Part shown: in pieces, positions 1,504 to 62,539 of the stretch
Layout: each line of letters opens with the position of its first letter
How positions within the stretch are numbered: position 1 is the first letter of the stretch
DNA from: Heliocidaris erythrogramma
Lineage: Eukaryota > Echinodermata > Echinoidea > Camarodonta > Echinometridae
Assembly (NCBI GenBank): GCA_025617745.1
Contig: CM046870.1
Span: forward strand, 29,655,927-29,719,926
DNA length: 64,000 nucleotides
Direction of reading: 5' to 3'
Position numbers and translations under genes: made by a program
The notes under the pieces: model-generated
The model's input: the letters and a program-made list of their open reading frames with translations, nothing else
Told to the model about the DNA's origin: nothing
Database searches by the model: none

Positions 1504-4500
1504 TTAGTAATTTGAATCCTGGACAAATTCATATTATGTGTTGGAAAGTGAGAATGGTATACTAGGAGATATTATTTTTTGTTTTTTAAATATTAAATTT
1601 TGAGTTTGTGCCGTTTTTAACATCGTGTGTTTCGAAGTGGAATACACGAATACTTGGTAAATGAAAGCGAATCGAGATCTACTGAGAGAGAAGGAAAATT
1701 GAAAGGAGGAAGAAAGAAAGGAAGCAGAAGAAATAGTTCTGAAAATAAAACCGCATGCTAAGAATAAGAAGACACGATGAATATGATCTGTCATCATCGC
1801 TATCTCTAAGATTATGTGGAATGTGTTTCCGGGTAATTCTGACCATCTTTTGCTCATCATCATTCCTGTTGCTATGGCAATGATCCTACCGGTTAACCTG
1901 AAGTCCTGGAGCGCATCTCATCCGGGGGCGGAGATGGGATATTGATCGGGAAGGGGGTTGTACATTAATTGTTATGGACTTTATCGTTCTCCGATTAAAT
2001 GAATCAATATACTTAACACTTTTATTTCAAAGAACAGGTTGAAACTTATATTATCAGATTGAAAATCCCTCCCCCCCCCCAAAAAAAAAAAGAAGTTTGA
2101 ATGCAACTATATATATTTGTCGCTCCTGTAGTATTATTTTATCATAAAATCATGTATGTTATCATCATCTTCTTCAATATTTTCTATGAATCTAGTTGCA
2201 ACATAAGTTAACAAATGTATGAATCTTCCAGTTTAAAAAATATGATAAGTTGTAAGGAAATGCCCCTTTTTCCAGACATTTTGCTTCTGGTTGAAATTTG
2301 GTGACCTTTTCATGCGAAGGCTACTATTTTGAGCGATGTTTTTCAGAAAACCTGTAATATGTGTATTAAGGTATATGGAAATCAAAAGACAAGGGACATA
2401 CCCTGAATCTGCATTAAATATCGTGAAAGCTGAAAAGTTATGAAAGTCATGATGATCTGATAAGGAAAGGAGACCCCCGCCCCTTCATCATCCCTCCCTC
2501 TACCCCTCACCCCTCCCTCTCACCCCCCCCCCCCCCCCCTCCCCGCTCCCTCTAACCCCTTTGGTGCACCCATCCGTCCCACAAAGGCGTGATTGTTGTC
2601 ATATCTCTGTCATGCCCAATCAAAATATGTGCCTAGCGCTCGGGGCTCGGGTTACGGGGCGTTTTTAGAATAAATCGTCCGGAGATAAAATCCGATATCC
2701 TTTATAACCAGTACATTTGTCGGAAGATGTCGATTGACATCTAGCTAGTGTGATCTTCAGAGGTTGGCATACATGCCAAAGAAATTATGCGAGTCGAGTC
2801 AGTTTGGTCATCAGGGGCGAAGCTGAAAAACGAAATACTGAATAGGAGGGGGTCGATAGTTGAAGACCCATTCATTTTGTTCATTCATACATTCGATCAT
2901 TCATTTCGCTTGACTGCATGAATAAAAACAAACTGAAAAATTCAAATGACTAGGTGTAGGTCTACTTAAAAAAACATTAGATACAGACAGATATTGTGCT
3001 GAAATGAATATATCAGCCAAAAAGGGGGAATAACCCAAGAAAACAGTCAAGTTTTAACATTATGAAATATTTTAATGATATTACACGATAAGTATACTAA
3101 TTGAAACAACTAAAAGAACAAAACAAGATGCTGCTCTTCGACATCTGCATGCGACAGTGATCTTCAAAGGTTGGCACATTTTCAAGGGATGGCAGATGCC
3201 TTTGCCCGAATATCAACTTCCAGTTTTACTTTTCTCGCGAGCGAGCGAAGCGAGCTGGGGGAAAGTGACATTTTTTGGTGAAAATGTACAGAAATTACAT
3301 ATTGGGGCACATCGATGCCTAAAATATGAGGATATTCAGGCACTCTGTGGAGGTTGCCCGAATATCAGAACTTTGAAAAATCCTCAGGGCTGGTATATAT
3401 ACAAACAACTTCATGTCAAATCATCTACCGATAAACTTTCCATTGACATGATGATTTCAAGACAGGTTATAACAATATCAGCGAATCACTAATACTAATA
3501 CTTTTGTTTAAACATTTAAACTAAACTACTTGTTAAATGAAGAAATATGTGAAGGAGAATATATGACTCAAAAGATAAACATGATCATAATATACAGTAC
3601 AACTGTTTACACAATGTAGCCGAATCATATTTATACAGTGTTTACAATATTTACATTCAAATAAATAGTCAGGTAGGATAAAATTCCTCAAAAGATAAAT
3701 GTTGGTCTGAACCTTTTTTTGTTTGTGATTTATTCATGTATTTCATGTATTTATTCATTGAGATTTGTAATCTCGTTGGACAAAGCATTTCAATTTCAAA
3801 ACATGCCAAATGCACTCCAGGAGAGCGTTTCATCGAGTGTTTTTTCAGTGATTTTTACCGACAACTGTTACAAGCTACTGAAATCCTTGCAACTGATTGG
3901 CTGAGAGCGAATTTGTTAGTAAATGTCACTTACAAAAAACACTTGATGAAACGCTCCCCAGACGTTAAAAAACGTTTCTCGCGAATTTTTCCTCATTTTG
4001 TTGCCCTATTTTGTCAAATATTCTTTGTAAATATTTTTTTTTCAGCTCTATATATATCTTCTGGGGGAGTATAGCAAAATGGTTCGAATTATGTTTTCTT
4101 GGCCCATCATGTCAAGATCTTCATAAAGTTGACCAAAGGCTCGGATTTCGGGCCAAACATTTTGTTGTACAAATAATTTATTTGCTCTATTTATCTCTGT
4201 GCTTTTAATTTCATCTGCCATTTGTGCTGAAAATTTACATTAAAAATGGTTCAATCTGTTCGTTTAGATCTGCATCGGACAGTTATAAAATATATCAATC
4301 TTCATTCCATGGTTTCAAAAGTTTGTTTCGGTTGGCTCAAACACCTTCCTTGTGAATCCAATTACTGGGAACAATCGCGTAGAAAGAGACCCATAATCAC
4401 ACGTTGATTACACTTACTGATAAACCATTAATCATTCTATTTAAAGAGAAGTTTCTACAGGTTCATTCCCCAGAACAGTTACAAATCTGAACTGAATTGA

Positions 4501-9710: not shown

Positions 9711-10185
9711 ATGGGTTTGCTAGATCAACAAATAATTTACAGGACACATGTATCCCTGTTTCATATATTATGTTGCTTTCTCCAACTTTCCTCCACCCTT
9801 GTAAGCAACACATACCGTACCGATATGCTATCAAACCACGGGCACCATACCACGGCAGAGATGCAACTCCACCGCTGGGCCGTCGCGGCAATGGATTACC
9901 CCAGGACACTGGACTGCACCGTAGTCCCATTCATAAGAGAACGTGAGTGCCTCCAGCTAGTGCAGCGGCCTGAAACGGAAATGAACTTGTATGTCGCGCC
10001 GCCGCGCCCCGGTGGCTATCATGCTGTGTTGCCTGACGGCGGGCTGAGTGGCAGTGGAACGCACGATGTGGTGCTCGCGATAGACCCCTACCCACAAGCG
10101 AGTTTTGGACATCTTGTGATCATCTTCTTCTTGGATTTTGATTTAGATCTTGATTCATGCCGAGAACGGGGCGGAAAATATCTTG
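9711..10185 (+). CDS. Gene 1 coding exon 1 (residues 1-158)
   Basis: The ATG at 9711 opens MGLLDQQ, followed by a hydrophobic stretch (SLFHILCCFLQLSS), so this start gives a signal peptide; the same frame is open to 9669 but without an earlier ATG. The exon closes at CTTG|GTGAGT, phase 1. It encodes a domain of unknown type ending in an alternating hydrophobic segment (GHLVIIFFLDFDLD). The codons are GC-richer than the flanking DNA. Confidence 0.75.
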
Positions 10186-19100: not shown

Positions 19101-22100
19101 ATCATCAGACTGGCAAGCTTCAACCACAAGACCTTGCTGAATGTGACCCGACATTGTCAGTCAGTGTATTGGTATGAACCAGGAAGGGGGGCATTTCATC
19201 AAGTGTCATGTTGGTGATATTTACCGACAAATGTGCTCTCAGCCAATCAGGTGCAATGATTTCAGTAGCTTATAACAGTTATTGCAACTTGTCATTGATG
19301 ACAAGTTTTATGAAACAGGGCCCTGGTTACCCGGATATACTGTTTCTTCTGGGTTTGTTGAATGCATCATTACGGAGTCATGTAGCGGACACATGTTGCT
19401 AGGCAACCATTTCACATATCCCAAATTTTACCATTCTGAAATTTGTTATACTTCAGATGCCTGCGGAAAGTGAAAATGCATGTCTTTGAACGATGTGTTT
19501 GTGTTCACGTGATACGGGTATGGTGGGTTAGGGTAGCTGTTTTTGATTGAATTTAAGTGTTTATGGTCTTTTCATCGACATATTCTGATGACAAATGACA
19601 GTGTACTTCATCCAAGTGTGGTAAATGTTTATTTCTATACAGCTCACTTATAGAAGGTAGAGGTTTGCATGGTGGTACTGATAACGTGGAGAAGGCTTAC
19701 GGTTCACCATGTGGTTAGTCCTGAAAAGGACTATTGAGTAAGAAGAATAGTCTTCTTAATAGAGACTACTCAATAGTCCTTTTCAGGACTAACCACAACC
19801 GTAAGCCTTCTCCACGGAACTCACTTATATTCATTAAATAAATTTCGTCTCATTGCCCAATCATATTTAGATGAGTAATACCATAATTAATCACGTGAAT
19901 ATCTTTGTTCTATTTCCCTTTGCTACATGACTGTAAGTTCCCATAACGTCCGGAAGGGCATGAAGGGAGAAAGACCAGATTTTAATTGACCTCAGTGTCA
20001 TGACTTTCTCCATGAATCTCTCGGTATCTAATGTGGGTGTCTACCTCCCTTTCTGACATACCAGAAACCAAACAGTGAAGCTCCAAGGAAAATAATAGAA
20101 AATGACAATTCATTACAATTGACCTTTGTAATGACTCATTAATTATATCGTCACGTTTTTGGTAATTATGAAAGGTGAATGCACTTTGTAATTGCCACTT
20201 TACAGGGTCTTACGTAGGGCATCGCTTGGTTGAAAATGAATAAAATCATTGCAGTCATAAGATCACAAATCAAGACAGGAGGTAATGGTGAAATTCAATG
20301 TCGCCTGGTCTCGAACAAAGTTCGTAGAATTACCAGCGTGCACACATTATAAATTATTAGTCAGAAATGTGGATTTTTTGGGGGGAGCATTTTTGCATTT
20401 TCAAACAGTTCCACTTCTGGTTATAGCAGATATATATGGTGTCAAAAGTGGATATGAGAAAAAGCAGAGACAAAATACATGTAGATTTTTACCAATTAAA
20501 GCAGAAAATGCGTTACCATGAAGAAATATTAATACTGATAATAATAATCTTTGTAATAATGACAATAATAATAACATTCATAAAGAGCTATATTACCATA
20601 TTTCGAATCATCGATATAATCGCTTTGAGAAACAAAATTGTCTCGGAGAAGTGATTTTTACTGTGTGTTAGTATACAGATTCTAAATTATACTGCCTTTT
20701 ACACAAATATATAAAAAAAATTATACTGCCTTTTCATTACACAGGACACATTTCGGAAGACACCATTGCCTGGCAAAAATATGAAGAATACAAAAACATG
20801 TCATCACCTTCGGGAATTACCTCAATACCTTCAATTTCTTTTTGTGGTCATGAGCTCTAGGCTAGGTAGAAGTAGCCCTCTAAATGACATTGAATAAAGC
20901 GTGGGAATATATAATATCCTAACATTCATACAAAATCCTAAACGTTTCATTGCTGCGATCACTGTGCAATATCTTGTTTGTTGCACGCGCTAAACCATTT
21001 CCGTTGACCCATGAATGTGGTTAGTTGTAAATACCTTGTGTTGTCTAGTGCATCTGTGTGGTGTAACTTTAATTTGCACATGTATCCGAGTGTAAAAGAA
21101 AATATCAAAAATTCAGAGAACAATGTTTAGCTCGGGTTATAAAAGCTGTTAAGAAGTATCACGCCAAACACGAGTGATATATATTCGTTAAGACCTATAC
21201 ATGTACACAAACATAACTTTTGAATTATTCACGATATCAATGCAAAAGTAGGTCATACGGTAAACACTATAAATTTTGCTTCTATGGGATGTAAATTGTG
21301 CGAATACACAATTAAATGTTGTTTTTCATAAATATATATATTTTTATTATATTGTTCTCTTCTTTTTCTTTGGTGTTTTTTCATTTTCTTTTTTTTTGAT
21401 ATATTTTTATGAAAGGGCTGCTTTATTGAATTTGAAATATGACAGAAACTAAAGTTTTAATGGGTATAATATACGACAATCGACGCTTTAACAACAATCA
21501 TAATTCACCTAAGAACATTTGAGGAAAACATGTTGTTGTGTCCAGGGAAGAATGTTTACAATGTTATTGAACACAACCATTCTAGTTAACATGGCATCAT
21601 ACATCCAATGATTCACTTGATTTCATATGAACAAACATGTGTTTTACAAGCAATTCACAATCCACTGGCAACAGAATACCGTTTCTTATTTTTCCATTGC
21701 ATACTTATACAATGACCCGTGTATGTACCACGCTATGCTATATATATTTCATCCCATCCTCGTCTCATTGTAAGTTAATACAAAAACCCTTTTTGTTCGG
21801 AATGAATAGTAATTGACTCGACTTGACTTTTCAGTCAATATACCTGTCGCTTGCTCGGGTCGGTGGAACAAGAATTCGCTGCTCCCAATCTCGTAAATCT
21901 TCTCCCAAATGCTCTCATCTGTGTCGCAGGCGGGAAATTGAAGTCCCCGTATCGTCTGCTCTGCCGAGAGTAAGAATGTGTGTTAAAGGATGTCAGTTAA
22001 CATCCTTCTTGCTCTATAACCAGATTGTAATTATCATTAGTAAGCTGGATGGTATAATGCTGTTAACTATGTTTCTCGCGTATGAAAGGATGAAGCAATC

Positions 22101-25100
22101 TCGATGAAACATTATATACTCGGGAGAGGGGTTAATGATGCCAAATGCGAGGGCGTTCTAACTCTATAAAGTGCATGGTAGAACTCCTTGTAATCATGAC
22201 AACGTATCTCGTGCACACCAGTATCGCATCCCCACATCCGTTTATCTCAAAACCCTATCTTGCTTCACATGCACCCTTTCTCTTTTGTGACATTACTATT
22301 CGTAAATTTAGTCAAGGATTTAATTCTTATGATATAATTCATTCATTTTCTTTTGTCAAGACTAAACGTCGAGAACCTTTTTCTCGAAACTTTTGAGAAT
22401 ATCTATATCGGCTTTGTCAAAATGCTAAATAATATACCTTGCATTAACGAAGGCCCGTAGATTAGAGAGAATAGCTTACATTTTGTTTGTTCTGTCTTCT
22501 TTTAAACTAGCTAGCGGTGAATGCCTTCAACTAGCTGAGAAGCAGCGATGCCGAAATCGTTTATGGCCTCGAAGTGGACGACGACGATGCGACATCAACT
22601 TTCTACCCCTCGTCTACTCCCCCTTCGACGAGGTTTGTTATTTTTTTACTTTGAAAGAATTCTTGTTAGCTAAAGCAAATGAGTTTGTCCGTTTAAAAAA
22701 AAAATATTTATGACTATAGCAAAGTTATAACTACACATTCAATAACAACGTTAATATTTTTAGGAGGAAAATATTGTACCACTTGATCTCCATTTTAAGG
22801 TATATGATACTTGAATAATTATGACATAGGCACTATTATGCTTATGAAAAACGTAATTTGGGGTTGTAGTTTCCCGTCGAGTACTGATTTCTGCGTGCAC
22901 GGAATTGTTCAACTTTTGTATTCAGGTCTGAATTTTCGCTATACATTTATGTTTAGCTCTATTCTGCCCATTTAGACAATTTAGATTGCAAACAGAAATT
23001 CATTTTCGGACGACGTATACCATTAGGTTTTCTACGCAATATAAACTAAATAACTAGATAGACTAAGCTTTTTTTAGTATACTTTAAAACCCGGTTTATA
23101 TCGTCTGTTTTCAAGAAGGACCGTAATGTCTTTTATGTTTCTCATTAATCCACTCTATTCAAGTCTATAAAAGCTCCGTGAACCTCGATTTAATCCCATT
23201 TTCAAAGACTTGCGCGCGTTGGCCAATTCACACCTCCCTTAAGTTGATACTACTTGCTTTTTGTAGGAAAGCTGTTATAATCTCCATTAAATGGATTGGA
23301 GCCGATATTTAAGTCAGTGTCTGAGTCATGACAGTTACTTAAAGTTGGTCATTGGATTGATAAAAATGGCGTCTAAAGCTTGACCGAATTTATGACCCCC
23401 TTCTTTGCAGAACTCTGTTTGAGTAGGTCCTGATCATAACAGACTTAAGACGAACTCCGAATTTTAGTCCAATGTTCTTAGAAATGCTGAATGGTGTCAG
23501 TAGTCGGACCCTGTGAATGTCAAATAGTTTTGTTTGTAAACAAGATAGTGTAGTAAATAACAACACTGTAGATTGACAAATGGTTATAGTGTATTTAATA
23601 GCACTATCAATTAGACGTTAGATATACGCTTGTATAGCGGGGATGCCAGTTTTCAGGCAAAAGCCTTTATTCAGATGTCAGGCCCTTGCAAGTCTTTTCG
23701 TGTCATTTTTCAAGTTTTTTTTTCTAGGGTACAAAAAGAGCTTATTGTAGGTTATTGTCAGACCCTCTTAAATTCTCTCTGGCATCCATGCTGTTGATAA
23801 AGTACTGACTGGACAGAATTTCGTACGGTTGGTCGCAGTGCAAAACAAAGTTGAAAAAAATCAATAATTTTACTTTTGAAAGAGTTGTCAATATTGTCTA
23901 TAGAAATGGATAACCCTTCAATAGCCTGAAAAAAGGGTTGAACACTTGGACACATATTTGATATATTTTCCGATTTCTCGCAAACAGTTCATTTTAAGGG
24001 TTTATTAAACGATGTACTTTAGCGAAGAATCACTGAACCTTGCAATGGCAAGAAGAAATATAATTGAATTTGTTTTTATTAGAAACCTGAAGTGTTTTTT
24101 AAAGTAGCACGTAACCTTAATTATGAACAATTCTTTGAATAGTTTTTATTTTCTTATTCGTGCATTATCATGTGGTTATCGACACGATTTTGTTTATAAT
24201 GTAATTAAAATTATCTTTACTATTTGATGCTACCGCCATATGTCTAAAAGATCAGATATTAATCGGCGAGTCAGACGTAATTGTCCTCTAAATTGCCAAA
24301 TTGAATGATGTATGATCTTTATCCCTTCAAAATAGGGGTGAATACCATAAAGAGTGCTATATACAGGTGTGGACTTTTTTATTCGAATAGTTTCGTCAAA
24401 TGTTTAATGAGTCGCAGGTATGATTGTGGAGTATAACGAGTAAAGATATTTTCAGGTATAGATTCAAAGGATCCCGCTAAATGATTATTAGTAAATCACA
24501 GGTGTGATCTCGGAGTTATAAAAGGGTAAAGAGCTGTTTTCAGGCATAGGTTGAAAGGGTCCCGCAAACGTTAAGAAGCCGGTATGGTCATGGAGTTGTA
24601 AAGAGTAGATAGATATATTTCTCAGGTATTGATTCAAAGGGTCCCGCCACATGAACATCACATGTATGATTATGATCATGGAGTAGAGACATGTAATTAT
24701 TTTCAGGTGATCAAAGTGGTAACAAAGAAGATTCCGTGGGAAAACTATGAGATGAGCCAATTTCGTATCGCATGAGAAAGATGGAAATTATTGTAAACAT
24801 TCCAATAAAAATTGTAGTTAAAAACGTATCTATAACTCATCTTCGCAAGTTAGTTTTGATTTCTTTTTTCCCTACTTACTATGTTTCCTCATGTATTTGT
24901 CTTTCCTCGGGCTAATTTCATTTATTTTAATTTTTTTATTTAATTATTATTCTGGGGGCTGTGTTGTGTACTTTTTCTAAAAAGATGTACATAAGATGGG
25001 GGTGGGGGCCATTTCACGAAAATAAGGTACGAGTGGTCCAGGGTGCTTCTTTGTACCTCAGATTTAATGGAATTAATGGAACCATCTATTTTATTGGAGA

Positions 25101-28100
25101 GTGTTACTACGAAAGATGCTTCAAATATATACGAAAAAGAAATACTGCTCATTTGAAATGTTCCGGAGGCCCGCAGTTTGTTTGGTGTTTTTTTTTTAGT
25201 TTTTTTTTTATAAATAAACTATATGTTAAAGTGTGTTTAGGTAATTAATAAAAGTGTATCGATCGGTTTGATGAAACTCAGAAGGGGTAGGAGTGAGAAG
25301 GCCGGATTCGTTCTTGCTGAGTTTTTTTTAAATCAGCGCGCTTCAAGGATGCTCACATTCTTTAAACAAATGTATTGGAATATTTAGTGGATGATGGAAT
25401 ATTTCTTATGCTTCACGGAAAGATAGATCGAAGCTCCGCCCTTGATGTTCATCTTTGATAAAGCATTGAACTCTCACAACTCGAGTACAAGTTAGAAGTT
25501 TGGAAAATCAACAGTCTGGCATTTGACTCGGTACGTGTCAAGGGCGAATATTTTCCAAAGTTCTCTTGGATTAATATCATCATCAAGGTATGAGAAGTGT
25601 CATTGAGGGTTGGTATCCAGCATGGAGATCAATTTTGCATTCAGGGCATGAACTGATAGCGGTATATACTCACCAACATCTTCCTTCTCTCCTTTTCTCC
25701 TCTCCTGCATTGTTCTCCGTGTTTCCCCCAGCAGAAAATTGCGAAAATAATGGGGCGCAGGTCGGATGGCATTTTGTTCATTGCTTCGATGTGAATAGTA
25801 GTAATGCAATTCGGTATTCTCTCGAATCAATTGAGCATGGATATTGTAAAGAAAGGGCAGTTTAAATAGCAGAAGAGGAAAGCGAAGTAACAAAACAGCG
25901 GTGAGCGGAGATCAAAGAGAACGAACCGCCGAGACTGGCGGTGCGCTCTTTGATCTTTGCCTACCAATAGACCGACTCGACATACAGCTATTCTAATAGC
26001 TACGTTAGCGCTCGACGCATTTTAAAGGGTGTTAAGAAAAGGGATGTTTAACCTCTATTATACTCCTCTATCAAAGATACAAAAACCCAACTGTTACAAA
26101 TTCTATAGATCTCTTTCTGCCAATTGAAAGGCGCTTTTTTAATGAAATGTCAGAATCGCATTATACGTCCATTTGAAAATAGATGTATTTTTTGTTTCGC
26201 CTGGAAGCTCGCTCTGTCATTTTATTAGTTATAGACTTTTTTCATTTTATCTGACTCCTTCTTAACATGCACTTGTATTTCTTTTAAACTTAGTTTGGAG
26301 ACGTTTAAAATCACGTAGGTTTTCCGAAGTTGATTGGAATCGTCCATAAAAAAAGAAGAAAAAAATCTTCCGAAACTGTAAATCTCTATTACTCCAATCT
26401 GATGTATCTATTCGTCGAACTGTGAAATTAAAAAGAGATTCTAGCGAAGCTATCTGGTACCCCCATCACTCGCATACCGGGGAACTGCACGATCTACTTT
26501 ATTTTTATTTCGATCTTTTCGGGTGAAATCAAACAACGTTTAGCACTAAATAGCGATCTCTTAATAGCATACCAATAGTTCTATCTCTCTAAATGCTACC
26601 TCGTAAAACAAACGCGAAACTATACCGTCGTCTGAGCCAAGAACGTGTTTATGTCCATCTCACATACAAACTAGTAATTTTATGCCCCTATGAAACATTT
26701 TCTTCCCCGCTTTGATGTTTCCCGCCGAGCCGTCAAAGCTGAGCTCGTACAAGAAGCCGGAAAAAGATCTCGGGGTTATTTAACTCGAACTGCTTCAATT
26801 ATTTAGGTATCATTTTAAATTTGGAATGCAATTCCTGGCTATGAGTCCTTCCCATGCATACACAATATTCTCCAGACAAGTTTCTCTTGGTGATGCCGTA
26901 ATGTAATTGTTCTAGAGTGCGAGATATAGTTGAGCCAGAGTTCACTTACAATTTTATATTTGATATGGTGTCGTGTCCTGGTTTTCCCTAGAGAGGATAG
27001 TTTACATTTTTCTATTTAAAGATATTGTAAAAACGTCATTTGGGCTCCATCAAAGGTGACGAGTGTATCGAAACATTCAGCAATGAAAATACATGAACTC
27101 AAGTCGTATGTCAACATCATGTTACCAATATTTGTGTTTATATAAAAGGTAATTTTTACTTAACTTGCCAAGGACGGTGTTGCCTTCTAATTCTCTCTTC
27201 AAATGGCGCTTTGAAACACACTCAAAAAAATGGGCCGAAGTTATGAAATTCTGTTCTCTAAGTCGTGGTATGAGTTTGAACCAAATGAATGATTTTGGTG
27301 ATACCACCATACATGTAGTATTTTAGAAGTAAAAAAAGATACTGGTTAGAATTGCCCAACATGACGGCAATTATGATTGTGTGCGACCACCTTTGGGCAA
27401 TCTTATAGCCATCTATGGTAACGGTTTGCCCAATGACTCCAAATTGAGTGAGCAAAAAAAATCACCCGAGTTGGGCGTTTGCCAAAAGTTGGTCGGACAT
27501 ATAAAGTACCCTCAAGTTGCGTGATTTTTCTTGTACACAATAGTTTTGACAGGTATGAATCTAAATGTCAATTTTTTTCAATGTCAATCTTTTTCCAAGT
27601 CGATCGAGTTTTTTACCATTTTTTTTTAACTTTTATTTTATTCCTTATTTTCTTTGCATCGTACAGACAAGAGAACAGCATCTTGTGTGCCGAGATGATG
27701 CTATCCTAGGATTCGGCTCATGCCCGACATATCGCAGTGATGCAGCCAACTACTCAACAAACTGTGAACTGAATAAGAACACAAGGCGGTGTGAGCTGCC
27801 CTCTTTGAAGGTAAAATATTAACTATATCACTATCAAATAAAAAGGGATGTGGTCATGTGCCCGGTCCGCCCCTTTTTTCAAACCCAAATTTATAAAGTT
27901 ATTTAATATGCAAGACATAGTAATCAGCTGGAATTAACTAATGATTGAAAGACTTGAACATTTTACCCCAAAAAAGTGTTATTAATATGATTTTGATAAG
28001 TTTCAAGAGGATTTTGATGATTAATTTCAGAATTACATTGTATGAGGTTTGTTTTTCTCTGTGTATATTATGAAGGTTTCAGTAATCTTTCAGAAGTTTC

Positions 28101-30463
28101 TGTGAATCAGTTCCTAATGCCTTCTTTCCGTCTCGCACTGATTTCCCCATGTTTCTGTAAGTTTGTAATTTTACTTAACCCTCCCCATTCTCTCTCTCTA
28201 GCTATTTCTACCTCCCGCCCCTTGAAATTCTATTTGCCTTCTCCCCATACTCAAGATAGTCTTAAACAAAACTTTTTTTTCAGAAAGAAATCCCTTTCCT
28301 TGTCTCCCACTATGCAGGTGAAAGCAAGATGCAAGGTATATGAGATCTGTGATCAAGCTGTTCTTATCTCAGGAGGCTTGAATCGACAGACTAGTCTGCA
28401 GTCATCGGCAGACAATGTCAGGGATATGTATTCTATGCTCAGGAAAAATGGATTCAGAAGACCCAACATCAAAACATTTTTTGCTGATACCAGCACTGTA
28501 TTAGGTATGCAACTTCATATGCACTTGCTCTTTTAATCGTTTTATGGACGTTTTTTTTCCCTCCCCCTCCCATTTATCAGTTTGTTATTGCTTCTCCTTT
28601 TCTTATTTTTCATCTGTTAATTGTTTAAGATTTGTTTACTTTCTTCTGCTACTGCTTTTACATGCTATTTTGTACTGTCTGTATTTCCATATTGTTGAAA
28701 GCAACACACAAGAAAATTTAAGCTAAAACTTTTTATAAACTCTCATATGTCATAAATCTTTACATGAAACACTTTTACACAAAACCTTTTAAGATGGAAA
28801 GAGATAAGAGGTAACTAGATTGTTCTGGATATGAGATATGTTAATCAAAGGAACTCTTTGTTATTTCTTTTAATTCCTTGCGTCAGATTGGTCCAATATC
28901 ACCCCACCCCATTCTCAAGTGTCCAAGCAACACTTCTGCTTGCAACTGTCTGTTTTACAGACTAGATTTGTCATTTAGATAAGTTAATCCATGCAAATCA
29001 GTGGCTATTTTTTTCCTGTGATTTTCTTCTACCTTCAGAAGACATAGATGAAGAGGGATCGAGACACACCTACCCAGCTACTCACAAAACGGCTATTCAG
29101 AGCCACCTAACTACACTATGTAGCACACCATACTGCGTACAGAGCCTTGTCATCTATCTGAATAGTCCCACCCTAGCAGATGGGACGATGCTATTATGGG
29201 ACACCAACCAGGATGGCATTGTGAGTATTGAAATCTTTGGAACAATGCGATATTTTTACATAAAGAATATTTGCTTTAAACTCGCAATATTGAGTGAATT
29301 CGGGCCATTGAATCAGAAACAGATATTTCAGTCCTCTTAATTTCTTCATGCTTAAGGTCACCATGTATGACAGTGTGCTATAAATGTTATGAAATTTAAT
29401 AGGATATAATTCTGGAGAACAAATATTTTTTGCTGTTGGATGTTGTTTTAAATTTCAGGTTCGGGAAACAAGATGTAAAAAAAGTTTGCATGGCATCAAT
29501 AATTGATTTGTAGATACAACAAATATCTTCAATATTACAGGCAGATAATTGTAGTTAAGTGGACATACTTCTGCTTACATATTGATAGACATTTTTTTTT
29601 CATTGTCCCAGCTTGTTCCATCAGTTGGGTAATATTTTTTTTTTCCTTCTTTATCTAAATTTCACCTTTCAAATGTGTTCCCTTGCTTCAATGTTATTAT
29701 TTACTATATTACTTTTGTTTCTTGATGTTTTCATTTTCATGTATGATGTGTAATTTTTTTACAAACGTCGTAAAAACAAACATCAGCTTTTCAGCTGCAA
29801 GTCTTGTTGTTATTTAAAAAACCATCACAATTCAATGCAAGTCAATATTCTTCTTTCTGCTGGTAACAAATACAATTTAAAAAATTAAATATTACAGTTA
29901 TGGATCAATAAATCTACATTATGTATTGAACCAACAGGCAGGTGTTGACGAGCAGTACACGGTATCTGAATTCTTAGAGGACATCTCTGACTGCAGTGCA
30001 CGACACATCTACATCATCGCTGACCAGAGCTTCTCGGGGAGGCTAGTAGATGCTCTTCAACTAACATCTGACACTCCCCGCCATGAGAATGTTGTGGTAT
30101 TCACGAGTGGAGGGAGTCTGGAGTACTCTTGGAATAGCGAGCTGACGAATCGATGGATGAATTCCAATCACACAACTTTGTGCGTTGATGAAATTCACCA
30201 GGTGAGAAATTGACCTTGATTTTTTCTGTCCTGCAAAATTAAACATTAACATATTGTCTGTTTGGAACCAGAAGGGCATTCATTTGTACAGAGTCAGTCA
30301 TATATATATCAGTCCTGAATATTAAAATCATCTTTCTCACAGCCATGTCTCAAAATTTTGCTCTTTGGGGGCATGAAGAAAAGCCAGTGTCCAAGAAACT
30401 CCATTGAGGCGGCATAGAAAATCTATTACTATTTGTTACACGCTGAATTATGTAGCAGTAGTG

Positions 30464-30518
<55 letters not shown>

Positions 30519-30844
30519 CGGTAGCAGTAGCAGTAGTAGTACATGTAGGAGGAGGAGTAGTGTTGTTTTTGTGTGTTACATTGTTAATAACCCGGAATAA
30601 TGGTTGATTTTCTCTATTTTAATTGGTCCTCTTTCTACAGGGTTATGAAGACACTCTTTCCTCAACGCCCCTCCTCTACGAAAGTTCTCCAAATGCTGCT
30701 AACACAACGCTGTTCGGAGCGCCTTGTGACATGCTTCCCTTTCTCACCCCCCATGAACTTCGCGTCACGTACATGGGATGTCAAAACCTTCCCATGACCC
30801 TTTGGTGGTTCCGCTTCCAGTCCACACGATCGACGCATCGATAG
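9711..30844 (+). CDS. Secreted legumain/caspase-fold pseudoprotease-like protein (7 coding exons, 525 aa), unnamed family
   Basis: Coding exons are 9711-10185, 22511-22632, 27667-27810, 28318-28504, 29039-29220, 29938-30201 and 30641-30844. All have AG/GT borders and phases that join without a stop (1578 nt with stop). Residues about 12-32 are hydrophobic, like a signal peptide. Residues 159-247 are Cys-rich with a basic RSGRRR run (179-184), a possible furin-type site. From about 260 the order resembles peptidase family C13/clan CD: strand AVLIS plus a D-N-V-x-x-M-Y helix (261-288), strand SLVIYLN (345-351), then IYIIADQSFSG (394-404), then NVVVFTSG and an E-Y-S motif. The family's His-Gly after the second strand is absent (NSP at 351-353), and the Cys of E-A-C-E-S-G or D-x-C-x-S-G is Ser401. 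Three N-glycosylation sequons (N227 and the NHT and NTT sites) fit secretion. A catalytically dead, secreted or lumenal protein is my inference; the exact family is not recognised. A 5' non-coding exon is possible but not visible. Confidence 0.8.
19185..19323. mobile_element. Miniature inverted-repeat element, reverse-orientation copy
   Basis: Ends ggggggcatttcatcaagtg and acttgatga-like/ttttatgaaacagggccc, with core 'gctctcagccaatcaggtgcaatgatttc' cut into the same order as other copies. Inserted in intron 1 of gene 1. Confidence 0.8.
19685..19816. repeat. Foldback (hairpin) element, 132 bp
   Basis: The left half cgtggagaaggcttacggtt...ggactattgagta is the inverse of the right half tactcaatagtcc...cgtaagccttctccacg, with a 3-5 bp offset in one arm and a short loop that is itself palindromic (agaagaatagtcttctt). 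Confidence 0.9.
22511..22632 (+). CDS. Gene 1 coding exon 2 (residues 159-199), isolated between two long introns
   Basis: This 122-nt open segment lies between AAACTAG and GAG|GTTTGT. The acceptor phase (2 nt completing the G left by exon 1) and the phase-0 exit both match the neighbours. It encodes a Cys/Arg-rich stretch, GECLQLAEKQRC followed by RSGRRRCDINF. No other open segment with matching phases was seen in introns 1 and 2. It is short and isolated, so it is less certain than exons 3-7. Confidence 0.65.
24414..24710. repeat. Degenerate tandem repeat, about 80-bp unit
   Basis: The pattern 'ggt(a/g)tgat...ggagt..taa..agta.a' then 'ttttcaggtatagattcaaagg.tcccgc' recurs about four times, starting near 24415, 24500, 24580 and 24661. 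Confidence 0.7.
25909..25956. repeat. Short hairpin in intron 2 of gene 1
   Basis: AGATCAAAGAG and CTCTTTGATCT form an 11-bp perfect outer stem and CCGCC/GGCGG an inner stem. It is unusually GC-rich for the surrounding intron. Confidence 0.7.
27667..27810 (+). CDS. Gene 1 coding exon 3 (residues 200-247)
   Basis: The exon follows a pyrimidine-rich tract ending TCGTACAG and closes at TTGAAG|GTAAAA; phase 0 at both ends. It encodes four cysteines (C207, C218, C232, C241) and an N-Y-S sequon at 227. Cysteine spacing suggests a small disulfide-bonded linker before the protease-like fold. Confidence 0.8.
28318..28504 (+). CDS. Gene 1 coding exon 4 (residues 248-309), first half of protease-like fold
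   Basis: Acceptor ACTATGCAG, donor TTAG|GTATGC, exit phase 1. The sequence AVLISGG followed by a D-N-V-R-D-M-Y-S-M-L helix, NGF and IKTFFAD corresponds in order and spacing to the first strand, helix and second strand of legumain-type peptidases. This is the strongest family signal in the gene. Confidence 0.85.
29039..29220 (+). CDS. Gene 1 coding exon 5 (residues 310-370), region of the lost catalytic His
   Basis: Acceptor CTACCTTCAG, donor GGCATT|GTGAGT. After the strand SLVIYLN, where clan CD peptidases carry His-Gly, the sequence reads NSPTLADGTMLLWD, with no histidine at that position. Two cysteines (337, 342) flank TPY and may form a disulfide. Confidence 0.85.
29938..30201 (+). CDS. 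Gene 1 coding exon 6 (residues 371-458), region of the lost catalytic Cys
   Basis: Acceptor GAACCAACAG, donor CACCAG|GTGAGA, phase 0 both sides. IYIIADQSFSG (394-404) aligns with the nucleophile strand of clan CD, with Ser401 where Cys is expected. It is followed by NVVVFTSG and LEYSW, like the next strand of legumains. It also carries an NHT glycosylation sequon. Confidence 0.87.
30460..30545. repeat. (GTA/TAG)n microsatellite
   Basis: About 80 bp of nearly pure AGT units between exons 6 and 7 of gene 1; the last part varies to GGT and GCA. Confidence 0.95.
30641..30844 (+). CDS. Gene 1 terminal coding exon 7 (residues 459-525)
   Basis: A strong pyrimidine tract and TCTACAG precede GGTTATGAAG, and the frame ends at TAG 30842-30844. 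It encodes an NTT sequon, two cysteines and a C-terminal MTLWWFRFQSTRS. There is no transmembrane segment or obvious GPI signal, so the product is most simply soluble. Confidence 0.83.
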   Translation, partial: GYEDTLSSTPLLYESSPNAANTTLFGAPCDMLPFLTPHELRVTYMGCQNLPMTLWWFRFQSTRSTHR

Positions 30845-50900: not shown

Positions 50901-53900
50901 AAGCACTTTGGTCAGTCCCTTGTAACTTATCATGAGGTACATAAAACAATTTTTCTATCATCATTATAAAATATAATTCAAAGCTGGTTTCTCACTGGTG
51001 TAAATGCTGGAAGAGACGGACCATGATGCCTTTGGTGGTATACTGCTGCACTCGAATCCAGAGGAGAGATCGTAAGTTACTCAGTAGACCCAAACTACCT
51101 GTAGAGGAGAGCAGCAGAACAGACATATGCATAACCTACTCAATATGCATGGAATCTGGATTATGCAATGATTGCACAATTACTACAACTACTGCTGCAA
51201 CGACAACTACTGCTGCAACGACAACTACTACTGCAACGACAACTACTACTGCAACGACAACTACAACTACTGTACAGTCTAATTAATATGTAGTCAACTC
51301 GATCATCATTTCTTTTATGGTGGTTCTGGACACTGCTTCAGCTTCCCCAATAAGCCAGTTCAGGGTTAGCGCATGGTACAAATGACCCCAAATATCCACA
51401 GATATTTTAGACATGGAGGGTCCCTTTATGTGCACTTCAGAAAAATAACTCTGGGAGTGATAGAGGTGCCTCATGAATAGCTTTTGTTTCCCCCTTTAAA
51501 AAGAATACTTCCACCTGGATATCATGGAATGCACCATTAGTGCATAATTGAATAATGATTACATGACATTCATGAGCACATATCGAATATTAGTGTCAGT
51601 GGGTTTTAGAATTTGGTACAGATGACCTTTATCTGCTCATGCTCAGATTGCATCTCCGAAGTGGCTTATTAGCAGCTGTGTGTAATGGTCTAATGTGCGA
51701 GAGAGCAAATATTTTTCTTTTAGTGCTACAAGGTTCTAATAAGATGCAATGTCCTTGAATACAATATACATGGTTATACTTTGTCGAAAAGTTGAAAAAG
51801 TGGACAATTTTGATTTAAAAAAAAAACAATGATTTTGAACCTCTCAATGTGTTGCCAAATTGGCAACAAAATATTTTATTTTAGTGCTACAGGGATCTAA
51901 TAAGATGCAATGTCCTTGAAAACAATATACATGGTTATACTTTGTTGAAAAGTTGAAAAAGTGGAAAAGAAAAACAATGATTTTGAACCTCTCAATGTGT
52001 TGCCAATTTAAAGATCTTAAAGTTTGTTTTTTATTAATTCCTGGCATCAAATGCAATATGGTCATGCAACTAAAATGGACAGAATGTGTTCAGAAATATT
52101 TGCTCTTTCTGTTCATGCATCTGGTATATTTTTAGGGCTCTGAATCAAAAGTACTTGAGCCAAACCACAAAATGTGGAGTGATGTCGCGAAAGGGCTAAT
52201 ATGAAGTTGAAGTAAGGGATAATTCATATACATTACCAAAGCCTCCACCCTGCAACAGCTTGCAACCGACGTAGAACAAAATGTACTTGACAGGAAATGT
52301 TGGAGGATCTGACAGCGCATCCACTGAGTTTCAAAGACACAGAGAAATTAGTACTAATCATGTTGATTTCCTATTTTTTTAACCTAGTGACTTGGCTACA
52401 AGTCACTAGGCAGTCATGCAAAAGGTCTGGGGCCTGTAACATAAAGAGATACAATCAATCTTATGATCAATTGTAACTCTTCAGTACATGGTTTGCCATA
52501 GACTTAAGATTGATAGCAATCGTAAGATTGATTTATCTCTTTATGTAACAGGCCCCTGATATCATTACGATTGGCGGCCGATCACGCCTTTTCTCCAGGG
52601 GATAATAATAACCTGCAATTTCAACATAATAATAATTTACTTAACAATTTAGGACTTCAGTCAGGAAAACTGGATGTCTTTGATCTTCATTTCTAATCTT
52701 AAACAATTTTCCTCAAAACTAGATATGGTCGAGTGATTAGGAGCTCCATGGCCATGTTCTTACCTATGTTCTTATTGAGGACAGGAACGAAGACATTAAT
52801 CACACGTCCAGCGACCAGGATAAGCAGACAGAAGAGAACCCTGAGCTGCATCAAGCAGTTCCCTTTAGGCCAGACATAGGGCCAGACGATGCGCACTTTG
52901 GTCATAGCGTTGGCCCATGTGGACGGGTTTTCTGGCCCATCCTGGGGTATCTCATTGGTCTATTGTAAGAGAACATTAACACAATTTGAACAGGCTTCTC
53001 AGCACGCAACTTGGTAAACCACAACAACAAATGAATGAAAGCCAAGTGGGGTATGAAAATAATGTTCACTTTTCAAAACTTTCAGTAACACATACGGTCA
53101 CCTCTGTGAAGAGGCTGTTAAGTTTTTCAATCGTAAAAGAGGACCCCTCCCTCTACAAAAATACAAATACAAGTACATCATTTAACAGTCTTTATGCAAC
53201 CACAACCTCACAAGGGTTACAGAAGCTGTCAATTGTGCATAGTCTCACCCCATGGAAAACAAATGAGAACATCCATTCAAAGAAAGTTGTTGAACAACAT
53301 GGATTATTTCCTAGCAAGAAGACATGTATCCTCTTAAGTCTTTTTTCCATATATTATTACATACCATAAGGGGTCTTTCCCAAAGCATGACATGGAATAT
53401 TTGGGATGCAAATTCATATAAAAGATTTGAAACTTACCAGCTCCCTACCCTCCTCATTGATGACAAGCATGTAGCTCTTCCTTGGCAGTCCTGGTGCTCG
53501 GAGACCAAGGACAAACAGACAAAATGTGAGGATGTATCGCGCTACCCACAAGCCAAACATGGACTGGTGGAACTCTGTCTCAAGCTTCCACCAGTAGTGG
53601 GGGCTTCCCCACGACACAAAAGCCAGGTTCTCGTTCAGGAAAGCCAGGGACCAGAAGAGGAGTAAAATGAACCCATGACCGCGTACTCGGCTGGCGAGGA
53701 ACTTTGTACGTTCAATAGCGACGACAAACATGGAGACGATGTAGGAAGCAATGTAGAAGCACGTGCCGAGTTCGATGTCACCGCTGAGAGGCTCATGGAG
53801 GACAGCGTACATGACGATGCGGAGGATGTACTGAGTTACCATGGCGATGGTGAGGAAGATTTGGAGGCGGAACCAAAAAGGGTTTGTTCGAAATCTTTGC

Positions 53901-54797
53901 TCAACACCCATTGCACGTTTCCAGAAGACTAAAACCTGACAAAAAATGGAAAATGTAAAGATGAAACTTCTTTCTTCTAGTGTATGAAAACTTCATCATC
54001 ATAAGGACACATTTTATAATATTTATGTTACACTTTTCTTGCATTTTCCGTAACACAAGACTGATAGCACATATTCCAATAAAGGGCAGTGATCAATATT
54101 TTATTTTCAAAATGTACTTTAAGTTTGCTACATCCCTCCTATGTTAAACTTTAATGCTAGATTTTACTTTTCAATGTACCGGTAGGTCTGACACTTGGAT
54201 TTGTACCCTCAACAATAAACATGAAAGCAGAAAAGTAATTATGAATTCCACTGTTTCAAATTCATTTTTCTTACATGTGTGATAATGGAAGAATGGTCTA
54301 TATCTGGTTGACAAGGTTACGTAACTAAATTTCCAATCTAGCTATAGCTCACAAACCAAACCACTCTCAAACTCACTAGATTGAATGATTTTATTAATTA
54401 AGAGTGTCAACAGTTTTATAAAGGATAGAAATATGTCCTTAAAAAATTTAACGTAATGATCAAGAATCCTGTAAGGAAAAGAAATTAGACCAGACCAAAC
54501 CTGGGCCCCGTTTCGTAAAATTTTTTATCAGTAACACGTTATAAGCTACTGAAATCCTTGCATCTGATTGGCTGAGAGCAAATTTGTCATAGAAATGGGG
54601 CAGTTGTTATTGATAAGTTGTATGAAACGGGGGCCTAGAACAGGATTAGGGATGCTCACCTGAATCCCTCCCAAGACGACGACAACAAAAAACATGATGG
54701 ATGAGACCAGGGTCTCCATGAAGCACCTCGACAGTCCTTGGTCCACCCAGATAGGGACCAAACTAGAGTTCCCTGGACAGAAACTTGCTTCTCCCAT
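35857..54797 (-). CDS. ABCB6: ABCB6-type half ABC transporter (20 coding exons, 831 aa)
   Basis: Twenty exons, listed separately, join in phase from the ATG at 54797 to TAG at 35857 (2496 nt). Order: TMD0 (residues about 20-200, including LVSW-like [11 protein letters not shown]), ABC transmembrane core (about 225-530), then the nucleotide-binding domain: A-loop Tyr585, Walker [10 protein letters not shown] (609-617), Q-loop Gln657, signature LSGGEKQR (713-720), Walker B FVLLDE (733-738), D-loop SALD, H-loop His769. All key residues are present. Known role of the family: a homodimeric ATP-driven transporter of porphyrins (and, in HMT1-like relatives, metal or phytochelatin conjugates) reported in outer mitochondrial, lysosomal and plasma membranes. 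Identity is clear from TMD0 plus motifs such as [19 protein letters not shown], shared with vertebrate ABCB6. It is convergent with gene 1; no lesion was seen. Confidence 0.95.
36063..36360. mobile_element. Copy of an approximately 300-400-bp intronic repeat family (TTAAAG.TAAAG end)
   Basis: Begins ttaaaggtaaagttttgttctgg and continues 'gaaactgtctcaaagc.attggg', shared with 46663-47024 in the same orientation and with 43480-43870 and 46205-46560 inverted. Lies in the last ABCB6 intron. Confidence 0.75.
36535..36698 (-). CDS. ABCB6: ABCB6 coding exon 19 (residues 739-793), D-loop and H-loop
   Basis: The exon runs from CATTCAG|GCCACA to AGGAAG|GTGGGT. It contains [14 protein letters not shown] (D-loop), [12 protein letters not shown] (H-loop His769) and [16 protein letters not shown]. 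Confidence 0.97.
37068..37240. repeat. Twofold tandem duplication, about 93-bp unit
   Basis: Two copies of 'gaactgaaca(c)ttt.agggtc.ctat..atgag.cccc.ttaaaa' followed by a G7-8 run and cagagttag. In an ABCB6 intron. Confidence 0.75.
37328..37440 (-). CDS. ABCB6: ABCB6 coding exon 18 (residues 701-738), ABC signature and Walker B
   Basis: The exon runs from TATGTTAG|GTTACG to GATGAG|GTAAGT. It contains [20 protein letters not shown] and Walker B FVLLDE with the catalytic Glu738. The donor follows Walker B directly. Confidence 0.97.
38052..38152 (-). CDS. ABCB6: ABCB6 coding exon 17 (residues 667-701)
   Basis: The exon runs from ACTGCAG|GTATAA to CTGAAG|GTGAGT. It encodes YNIRYGKV, then [20 protein letters not shown], the helical subdomain of the ATPase. 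Confidence 0.95.
38393..38539. mobile_element. Miniature inverted-repeat element (GGGCCCGTTTCATAAAA type)
   Basis: Ends gggcccgtttcataaaactt and attttatgaaacaggccct; shared core with 'cagccaatcatatgcaaggatttcagtagctta'. In an ABCB6 intron, between exons 16 and 17. Confidence 0.9.
38688..38761 (-). CDS. ABCB6: ABCB6 coding exon 16 (residues 643-667), Q-loop
   Basis: The exon runs from ATCTTCAG|GTTGCC to ATATCAG|GTAAGT. It reads [20 protein letters not shown] with the Q-loop Gln657. Confidence 0.96.
38994..39132. mobile_element. Miniature inverted-repeat element (mixed ends)
   Basis: Left end ggggagcgtttcatcaagtg resembles the 3820 copy, right end gtttcatgaaacggggccct resembles the 38393 copy. 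This copy links the two end types as one family. Confidence 0.88.
39308..39412 (-). CDS. ABCB6: ABCB6 coding exon 15 (residues 608-642), Walker A
   Basis: The exon runs from TGATGTAG|GTGGGT to AGCAAG|GTAAGA. It contains GPSGAGKST (609-617) with the phosphate-binding Lys615, then [12 protein letters not shown]. Confidence 0.97.
39452..39532. repeat. 81-bp hairpin in ABCB6 intron 14
   Basis: tcgtcgcatcagtgtaa and ttacactgatgcgacga form a 17-bp perfect outer stem, continued by aaaggg/cccctt. Confidence 0.9.
39786..39843 (-). CDS. ABCB6: ABCB6 coding exon 14 (residues 588-607)
   Basis: A 58-nt exon from TTTTTGCAG|GAAGCC to GCTATT|GTAAGT. It reads [19 protein letters not shown], the strand leading into Walker A. 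Confidence 0.94.
40291..40376 (-). CDS. ABCB6: ABCB6 coding exon 13 (residues 560-588)
   Basis: The exon runs from ATCCCCTAG|ATTACA to GAACA|GTAAGT. It contains [14 protein letters not shown] with the A-loop aromatic residue Tyr585 that stacks on the adenine. Confidence 0.93.
41150..41213 (-). CDS. ABCB6: ABCB6 coding exon 12 (residues 538-559)
   Basis: The exon runs from ACTTTCAG|AATGAT to CAAGAG|GTTAGT. It encodes [20 protein letters not shown], the linker helix into the ATPase domain. Confidence 0.94.
41568..41644 (-). CDS. ABCB6: ABCB6 coding exon 11 (residues 513-538)
   Basis: The exon runs from CACCGCAG|GCAGGG to CTACAG|GTAAGC. It reads [20 protein letters not shown], then FGTYYR, the last core membrane helix region. 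Confidence 0.94.
41682..41828. mobile_element. Miniature inverted-repeat element (GGGCCC type)
   Basis: Ends gggccctgtttcataaaact and agttttatgaaacggggccc are near-perfect inverted repeats. The core is in the opposite orientation to the 38393 copy. Only 37 bp from exon 11. Confidence 0.93.
42089..42242. mobile_element. Degenerate old copy of the GGGCCC miniature element
   Basis: Same architecture (agggctctgttttatttt ... gcaagctactgatatcatgg ... cttgatgcatcagggtcct) with many substitutions. Confidence 0.7.
42296..43302. mobile_element. 1-kb foldback element with 190-bp inverted arms
   Basis: Arms 42296-42486 and 43113-43302 are near-identical inverted repeats carrying 'ccggtcagaatgctctggcc'. 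The 626-bp centre has a direct duplication of about 190 bp (42488-42680 and 42688-42885) and a repeated 'tcctttcaatgcaggtac' unit near 43010-43060. No open protein. Lies between ABCB6 exons 10 and 11. Confidence 0.9.
43334..43459 (-). CDS. ABCB6: ABCB6 coding exon 10 (residues 471-512)
   Basis: The exon runs from TATACAG|GTGAGC to CTCACA|GTAAGT. It encodes [20 protein letters not shown] and a hydrophobic helix ([13 protein letters not shown]). Confidence 0.95.
43480..43870. mobile_element. Copy of the TTAAAG-end intronic repeat, inverted
   Basis: Reads gaaggttgagtcctgggaaaggtgac through tttatctttaaaaggga, the reverse complement of the 46663-47024 type. A few bases left of it is exon 10. Confidence 0.75.
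44311..44376 (-). CDS. ABCB6: ABCB6 coding exon 9 (residues 449-470)
   Basis: A 66-nt phase-0 exon from TTTCTAG|GTTAAA to TACCAG|GTTAGT. It reads [18 protein letters not shown], matching the family motif VKYYNxExxE. Confidence 0.95.
44997..45106 (-). CDS. ABCB6: ABCB6 coding exon 8 (residues 412-448)
   Basis: The exon runs from TTTTCAAG|TCGTCAC to GAAACT|GTAAGT. It encodes [12 protein letters not shown] and [11 protein letters not shown], the second cytosolic loop conserved across ABCB6/ABCB7. Confidence 0.95.
45170..45690. repeat. Diverged copy of the TTAAAG-end repeat with an inserted segment
   Basis: ttaaagataaagtttagctcc at the left and ttctctttaatgat at the right correspond to family ends. 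An extra block at 45280-45425 (tgggatgccact.. to ..gtggcatccctg) is flanked by inverted 'agggatgccact'/'agtggcatccct', suggesting a nested element. Confidence 0.65.
46100..47240. repeat. Direct duplication enclosing an inverted pair of TTAAAG-end repeats
   Basis: Sequences at 46100-46200 plus 46575-46650 recur at 47030-47220 (shared 'acaaggacaaaaaaatgtgg' and 'aagaaatagttaaaccaaag'). The first copy is split by an element at about 46205-46560, which is absent from the second; another copy in inverse orientation (46663-47024) lies between them. Confidence 0.75.
47345..47390. repeat. 'gcctccggcaccacc' hairpin
   Basis: The stem gcctccggcaccacc/agggcggaggc is followed by an A run; the same motif ends the repeat at 56500-56540. 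Confidence 0.75.
47624..47745 (-). CDS. ABCB6: ABCB6 coding exon 7 (residues 371-411)
   Basis: The exon runs from CCCTACAG|CTACATTG to ATCA|GTAAGT. It encodes two adjacent core membrane helices, [19 protein letters not shown] and [16 protein letters not shown]. Confidence 0.95.
47800..48260. repeat. Intronic repeat family B, copy 1
   Basis: Shares over 400 bp of close identity with 49314-49735 ('tggcatcaaacgaaatatgg', 'tctttctactcatgcatcta') and includes a (CCCTAA)-like tract at 48028-48085 that is longer than in copy 2. Confidence 0.85.
48641..48812. repeat. Tandem repeat, about 73-bp unit, 2.3 copies
   Basis: The unit 'attcagtagtcaacgg.ttaacccata' then 'tacgggaaccgggt.gctcctgta' and 'atgagagtt.aag' repeats, ending close to ABCB6 exon 6. 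Confidence 0.9.
48868..48957 (-). CDS. ABCB6: ABCB6 coding exon 6 (residues 341-370)
   Basis: The exon runs from TTTCCAG|TTTGTC to CTCAG|GTATCT. It encodes [20 protein letters not shown], the ABC transmembrane coupling-helix signature of the ABCB6/7/HMT1 group. Phase 2 in and out. Confidence 0.95.
49178..49735. repeat. Intronic repeat family B, copy 2
   Basis: The longest copy; the left half (ttggcaacaataatattttt...) is shared with 51700-51990 and the right half with 47800-48260. Confidence 0.85.
50220..50645. other. GC-rich island in ABCB6 intron 5
   Basis: A 400-bp CpG-rich block unlike the AT-rich intron around it. Inverted 'gcctcgaagccgcctc' and 'gaggcggcttc' motifs and repeated 'atgtgtaaca' suggest an inserted element. 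Its frames show no recognised domain. Confidence 0.5.
50651..50795 (-). pseudogene. Partial duplicate of ABCB6 exon 5 and its downstream intron
   Basis: 145 bp matching 50894-51035 with scattered substitutions. Positions 50756-50795 correspond to the last 40 bases of exon 5 with its donor (ctcac on + strand) retained, but the rest of the exon is absent, so no acceptor belongs to it. Confidence 0.85.
50996..51098 (-). CDS. ABCB6: ABCB6 coding exon 5 (residues 307-340)
   Basis: The exon runs from CTCTACAG|GTAGTTTG to CACCA|GTGAGA. It encodes [16 protein letters not shown] and VRLFQHLH, the conserved intracellular coupling region. Its last 40 bases are duplicated about 240 bp downstream in the gene (see 50651-50795). 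Confidence 0.92.
51179..51280. repeat. 18-bp minisatellite
   Basis: The unit 'acaactactgctgcaacg' with CTG/CTA variants, about five copies, 80 bp upstream of ABCB6 exon 5. Confidence 0.95.
51700..52200. repeat. Intronic repeat family B, copy 3 with internal duplication
   Basis: 'tctaataagatgcaatgtcc' through 'aacctctcaatgtgttgcca' occurs twice in tandem (about 51707-51857 and 51868-52006), followed by the right part shared with copies 1 and 2. Ends 37 bp from exon 4. Confidence 0.85.
52237..52323 (-). CDS. ABCB6: ABCB6 coding exon 4 (residues 278-306)
   Basis: The exon runs from AAACTCAG|TGGATG to GGCTTTG|GTAATG. It reads [16 protein letters not shown] followed by KLLQGGGF, matching the family's conserved LQGGG turn. 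Phase 1 in and out. Confidence 0.9.
52383..52410. repeat. 28-bp perfect hairpin
   Basis: CCTAGTGACTTG and CAAGTCACTAGG are exact inverse copies around GCTA. Confidence 0.9.
52429..52556. mobile_element. Second type of miniature inverted-repeat element (GGGGCCTGTAACATAAAGAGAT)
   Basis: Ends ggggcctgtaacataaagag and ctctttatgtaacaggcccc are near-perfect inverses; inner 'caatcttatgatca'/'aatcgtaagattg' also pair. In ABCB6 intron 3. Confidence 0.92.
52764..52959 (-). CDS. ABCB6: ABCB6 coding exon 3 (residues 213-277)
   Basis: The exon runs from ACAATAG|ACCAATG to AACATAG|GTAAGA. It encodes the cytosolic linker (NPSTWANAM), then the first helix of the ABC core ([20 protein letters not shown]). 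Exit phase 1. Confidence 0.92.
53438..53935 (-). CDS. ABCB6: ABCB6 coding exon 2 (residues 47-212), most of TMD0
   Basis: The 498-nt exon runs from TTTTTGTCAG|GTTTTAG to GAGCTG|GTAAGT. It encodes the remaining TMD0 helices, including [15 protein letters not shown] and [16 protein letters not shown], which closely match the corresponding vertebrate ABCB6 blocks. Confidence 0.95.
54503..54636. mobile_element. Miniature inverted-repeat element (GGGCCC type)
   Basis: Ends gggccccgtttcgtaaaatt and ttgtatgaaacgggggcct; the core matches 41682-41828 but lacks about 14 bp. It ends 23 bp from the donor side of ABCB6 exon 1. Confidence 0.9.
54660..54797 (-). CDS. ABCB6: ABCB6 coding exon 1 (residues 1-46)
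   Basis: [12 protein letters not shown] opens the lumenal N terminus, with the ABCB6-like W-x-D/x-Q-G-L-S-x-C-F motif, then the first membrane helix begins. The donor is ATTCAG|GTGAGC, phase 0. The promoter and 5' UTR limits are not visible. Confidence 0.88.
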
Positions 54798-62383: not shown

Positions 62384-62482
62384 GGGTTAGTGGTTTCGGC
62401 GACACCAGATTCAATTGACCGACAGATTTGACAAATCTTCAACCTTATTAATTAATTCCTTTGTTGGGGGCAGGTGAGTTTT

Positions 62483-62539
62483 GTGGTTAAGGCATTGGCG
62501 TTCTAAGCCAACGACCCGGGTTCGATTCCCGGCGGAGAC
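62483..62539 (+). pseudogene. Truncated tRNA copy, opposite orientation
   Basis: From the D-loop (gtggttaaggc) to the 3' end it is identical to the tRNA at 62312-62383, but the 5' acceptor strand and first part of the D-arm are replaced by unrelated sequence (caggtgagtttt). It cannot form the acceptor stem and lacks the start of the A box. Confidence 0.65.

Follow-up and report, generated by a model that had tools for sequence, protein, structure and literature searches.

A candidate secreted pseudopeptidase gene with a predicted caspase/haemoglobinase-like domain in Heliocidaris erythrogramma

Gene structure and product

We analyzed a 64,000-nucleotide stretch of the Heliocidaris erythrogramma genome (contig CM046870.1, positions 29,655,927 to 29,719,926), hereafter called the window, with a focus on a seven-exon gene on its + strand. 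The product has a Cys-rich N-terminal part and a C-terminal half resembling clan CD peptidases in the order of its elements. Every internal exon border is AG/GT, and all phases are in agreement. Exons 4 to 6 had been proposed in a preliminary description made from the sequence alone; their borders and phases are consistent, and all sequence strings quoted for them are present in the translation. The product length given there, 525 residues, was reached exactly when exons 1 to 3 and exon 7 were joined to these three. The exons and the two codons facing the catalytic positions are as follows, with secondary structure elements taken from the predicted models described below.

Exon 1, 9711-10185, + strand: start ATG, open frame, GT donor, phase 1; residues 1-158 plus base 1 of codon 159; signal-like hydrophobic stretch (residues 14-32) and first portion of the N-terminal domain
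Exon 2, 22511-22632, + strand: AG/GT, phase 1 to 0; residues 159-199; Cys-rich middle, RSGRRR
Exon 3, 27667-27810, + strand: AG/GT, phase 0; residues 200-247; Cys-rich middle, sequon N227
Exon 4, 28318-28504, + strand: residues 248-309 plus base 1 of codon 310; the clan CD-like domain begins here, with predicted beta1, alpha1 (ADNVRDMY) and beta2
Exon 5, 29039-29220, + strand: predicted alpha2 and beta3 (VQSLVIYLN), then the loop SPTLADG where clan CD enzymes carry the catalytic His
Pro353 codon, 29167-29169, + strand: faces the catalytic His in a visual alignment anchored at the beta3 IY
Exon 6, 29938-30201, + strand: predicted alpha3, beta4 (HIYIIAD), alpha4 start QSFSG and beta5 (VVVFTS)
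Ser401 codon AGC, 30028-30030, + strand: catalytic Cys position in a visual alignment anchored at the SG of EACESG in host legumain
Exon 7, 30641-30844, + strand: C-terminal portion, sequon N479, stop codon

Intron 1 contains, at 19685-19816, a long hairpin that resembles a miniature inverted-repeat transposable element; it is built from two perfect inverted repeats, one nested in the other, with arms of 31 and 20 bases.

A second copy of the gene and protein-level constraint

In the genome, searched as 26 contigs (1.06 Gb), COX1 lies on contig C24, with 11 in-frame TGA in the match. Under translation table 9, four conserved Asn positions of the COX1 reading, such as those in QIYN and RMNN, are encoded by AAA, in keeping with the mitochondrial code that echinoderms and flatworms use; together with the likeness of this COX1 to that of sea urchins, this points to an echinoderm host. 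The contig that carries the window (C18) has a second full copy of the gene at a distance of about 506 kb. No diverged paralogue was found in this genome at E <= 10, the 14 matches being the seven exons in two copies each. Across 525 codons, the coding sequences of the two copies showed 14 synonymous and no nonsynonymous differences (S = 361 and N = 1214 sites), and the encoded proteins are identical. The probability of such a 14:0 split is about 1e-9, assuming that changes are spread evenly over sites. The differences fall in exon 1 (three), exon 3 (four), exon 5 (three), exon 6 (one), and exon 7 (three), and exons 2 and 4 do not differ. Because the copies differ at synonymous sites only, the protein is under strong constraint in its N-terminal half as well as in its domain, whether the copies are alleles or duplicates.

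The aligned pieces around the gene, exons included, showed 1.0-2.6% substitutions between the copies, plus insertions and deletions. The synonymous divergence (3.9%, 14/361 sites) exceeds this range, though on small numbers. When the regions of C18 at about 29.50-29.71 Mb and 30.00-30.22 Mb were compared, each of the four tested features recurred 505-507 kb farther along the contig, oriented the same way: the repeat-bearing segment 3080-3500, this gene, an exon that we take to be ABCB6-like, and a 1-kb piece at 29.50 Mb outside the window. The doubled block of about 0.5 Mb reflects either alleles left unpurged in the assembly or a duplication in head-to-tail arrangement. Since this doubling, with an offset of about 505-507 kb, affects tested pieces within the window as well as beyond it, the two gene copies may be alleles.

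Predicted fold of the C-terminal half

The preliminary description had proposed that the order of strands and helices in exons 4 to 6 parallels the legumain/caspase fold, and had named structure prediction with a fold search and a profile-profile search as checks. The clan CD core is defined in PMC4357240 as four parallel strands in the order 2-1-3-4 with helices alpha1-alpha3. This core was present in the predicted models, which are of low confidence; the order of elements was read from the models, and the strand order within the sheet is implied by the structural alignments. In the Foldseek search, four of the five matches at E <= 0.001 were clan CD proteins or Raptor. In a second structural comparison, all 50 matches listed were clan CD proteins or Raptor, and the best C13, C14, metacaspase, and Raptor matches among them lay within about 1.3 Z (11.1 to 9.8). 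Legumain and PIGK ranked high in the fold-match list. In addition, the caspase-like core was seen again in a run on the mature-length protein. The proposed order of elements was matched by the models and by caspase/haemoglobinase-like fold matches, at low model confidence and with no link at the level of sequence profiles.

For this comparison of profiles, the hhalign target consisted of only three partial sequences, namely, host legumain, human legumain segments, and host PIGK. The domain scored 13.6 against a shuffle mean of 13.3, and 81 of 200 shuffles scored as high. The reversed sequence scored 15.3, above the real one, and with the first 212 domain residues, 78 of 200 shuffles were as high. 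Neither comparison is significant. Pfam C13 (PF01650) gave no match at E <= 10 with either the whole protein or the domain, while the host legumain control gave 8.7e-83. No Pfam or NCBIfam model matched the whole 525-residue protein at E <= 10, in searches whose filters discard most weak matches, and residues 33-258 had no Pfam match. The domain matched IL3 (E 0.17) and DUF7441 (E 0.96) in Pfam, far below the cut-offs, and a sequence search of the PDB gave a single match (E 0.32); all three were taken as chance. The 278-residue domain had no relative among viral contigs, nor had a 201-residue part of it among prokaryote contigs or a 162-residue stretch around the Cys-rich middle in either collection; since only viral and prokaryote collections were searched, this result is silent on other animals.

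Several of these observations weigh against a caspase-like fold. The models are of low confidence and were predicted from a single sequence, which may favor well-known folds, and a profile link to C13 is missing. Moreover, the Foldseek matches include integrin beta chains, YajL, and PatB for the first model and oxidoreductases for the second. The C-terminal half could be a different kind of alpha/beta sandwich (integrin I/VWA-like, DJ-1-like, or SGNH-like), drawn toward the familiar caspase fold by modeling from a single sequence. However, clan CD proteins and Raptor dominate both structural comparisons as given above, the core returned in the mature-length run, and the order of elements had been proposed from the sequence before any model existed. 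We consider another sandwich unlikely, and the models support a caspase/haemoglobinase-fold domain in the C-terminal half.

Absence of the catalytic dyad

In clan CD, the catalytic His is located at the C-terminal end of beta3 and the catalytic Cys at that of beta4 (PMC4357240), and both are described as strictly conserved among the enzymes of the clan (PMC9604545). Host legumain carries HVFVYFADHG and LVFYLEACESG at these two strands, and host PIGK carries NVLVYMTGHG and LLFIVDTCQA. The corresponding stretches of the window protein are SLVIYLNSPT and HIYIIADQSFSG. The catalytic positions were set by the secondary structure of the models, by anchors placed by eye on IY and SG, and by the register-free absence of His or Cys. 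A MAFFT alignment misplaced beta3 and beta4 and was not used.

Both substitutions named in the preliminary description were confirmed. His-Gly is absent after LVIYLN, and residues 351-392 hold no His whatever register is used; His393 is the first residue of beta4. Ser401 takes the place of the catalytic Cys when aligned by eye on SG, and residues 393-451 hold no Cys. When the alignment is made on the beta4 strand instead, the Cys position is occupied by Gln400. Neither a His with an adjacent Gly at the end of beta3 nor a Cys at the end of beta4 was found. Because no register brings a His into 351-392 or a Cys into 393-451, the clan CD catalytic dyad is, as judged from the sequence, absent, and the protein is presumably catalytically inactive.

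A protein with this fold could also be an enzyme whose catalytic residues have migrated, with Ser401 as the nucleophile and a base from another loop, e.g., His319 or His325 between beta2 and alpha2. Ser401 is located in the predicted models at the N terminus of the helix following beta4, His is present at 319, 325, and 332, and a pseudoenzyme review names migrated residues as a possibility (PMC10211241). In contrast, the beta3 loop is entirely without His, and metacaspase 4 of Trypanosoma brucei, with a Cys-to-Ser change, is reported as a catalytically inactive pseudopeptidase (PMC6657590). Such a migrated active site is highly improbable.

Secretion, cysteines, and processing motifs

A signal-like N terminus had been noted. 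As judged by hydropathy only, the top-ranking 17-residue windows fall at residues 14-32 (mean 1.68), but a stretch at residues 129-150 comes close (1.45). After the signal-like stretch there are 18 Cys residues, an even number. The three sequons of the preliminary description are present (N227, N447, and N479), but their number is at chance level (3 versus 3.5 +/- 1.7 in shuffles), and they were dropped as evidence of secretion. The possible furin site is a single R-x-x-R (RSGR, residues 179-182), a minimal motif and not the full one, which lies inside the Cys-rich part; furin activation was also dropped. Neither feature supports a secreted binding protein. The hydrophobic N terminus, the 18 Cys residues, and a fold common to secretory-pathway enzymes suggest that the product is likely a secreted, disulfide-bonded protein.

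Legumain and PIGK, which rank high in the fold list, both function within the secretory system. The protein could be a lumenal factor of the endoplasmic reticulum, not a secreted ligand, e.g., a noncatalytic putative partner of the host glycosylphosphatidylinositol (GPI) transamidase or of legumain, in the way cFLIP serves caspase-8. Heterodimers of pseudocaspases and caspases are known (PMC11121540). On the other hand, legumain is described as an active monomer (PMC4357240), and the C terminus, RSTHR, has no KDEL-like retention signal. We regard a lumenal partner as quite unlikely.

Other features of the window

The remaining features lie outside the gene.

3080-3500: contains a dispersed repeat with at least 41 genome-wide matches at 69-88% identity besides the window and its copy, a lower bound from 40 of 378 scored candidates
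53414-53992, - strand: open frame, the presumed ABCB6-like exon, matching MTABC_N (1.1e-43), the N-terminal five-transmembrane region of mitochondrial ABC transporters
59725-61123: about 570 bases in direct repeat, spacing 822-825 bases, three aligned pieces at 89-97% identity
62312-62383, - strand: tRNA-Arg (TCT) gene
62477-62532, + strand: weaker partial tRNA match (33.1 bits, model 9-63) near the tRNA-Arg gene, in opposite orientation

Discussion

The gene probably encodes a secreted, disulfide-rich protein with a caspase/haemoglobinase-fold domain that lacks catalytic residues and acts by binding. An extracellular pseudoprotease, possibly a ligand or binding protein, had been suggested in the preliminary description. 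This suggestion is supported in part: the gene structure, the strong constraint on the protein, and the absence of the dyad were observed directly, the fold is supported by low-confidence models, and secretion, inactivity, and binding are what we infer. In the proposed arrangement, a Cys-rich N-terminal part would be combined in one secreted protein with a C-terminal domain in which Pro/Thr would stand in place of the His that ends beta3 and Ser401 in place of the Cys that ends beta4. With both residues lost, the clan CD mechanism would be unusable. The former substrate cleft and the surface loops would offer an interaction surface for other proteins, either extracellularly or in the lumen of the secretory pathway, and the protein might serve as a ligand, as a partner of an active enzyme, or as a decoy that engages an inhibitor or a substrate. 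Because the dyad is absent, a binding protein on a protease scaffold, as in other pseudopeptidases, is the best reading, and by this analogy a binding role is most likely.

The protein differs from the known systems compared with it. Legumain (MEROPS C13, PF01650) has His148 and Cys189, whereas the window protein has no equivalents of them, no Pfam C13 match, and no detectable profile similarity, and carries an extra Cys-rich N-terminal part. PIGK/GPI8, the C13 catalytic subunit of GPI transamidase, keeps GHG and DTC in the host, and the window protein reads SPT and DQS at these places. Raptor, a scaffold of mTORC1 in the cytosol, lacks a Cys-rich N-terminal part; the window protein differs from its N-terminal CASPase-like domain by that part and by having no Pfam family match. 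cFLIP and caspase-12 are intracellular. cFLIP-L and caspase-12 are animal pseudocaspases (PMC11121540). They are close kin of caspase-8 or the inflammatory caspases, whereas the window protein has no family match. In T. brucei, the metacaspase 4/metacaspase 1 pair shows His-to-Tyr and Cys-to-Ser changes, and metacaspase 4 is functional without catalysis; it resembles the window protein in its replaced catalytic residues but is a membrane-linked parasite metacaspase and not a disulfide-rich animal protein (PMC6657590).

Among the matches listed in open-access titles and abstract openings, no secreted legumain-like or caspase-like animal pseudopeptidase was described. The inactive clan CD proteins compared here (cFLIP, caspase-12, and T. 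brucei metacaspase 4) are all clearly caspase- or metacaspase-like. It is possible, if rather doubtful, that with this protein an animal family of clan CD pseudopeptidases, secreted and rich in disulfides, is described for the first time; such a family would be unseen by current sequence models, and in it a secretory-pathway protease fold would have been recast as an extracellular binding protein. Altogether, the protein qualifies well as a candidate extracellular pseudopeptidase of a new type. If this is true, the caspase fold would also have been recruited as an extracellular binding module that is secreted, Cys-rich, strongly constrained, and without a Pfam match, and the protein would be a concrete starting point for finding the binding partners of such a module.
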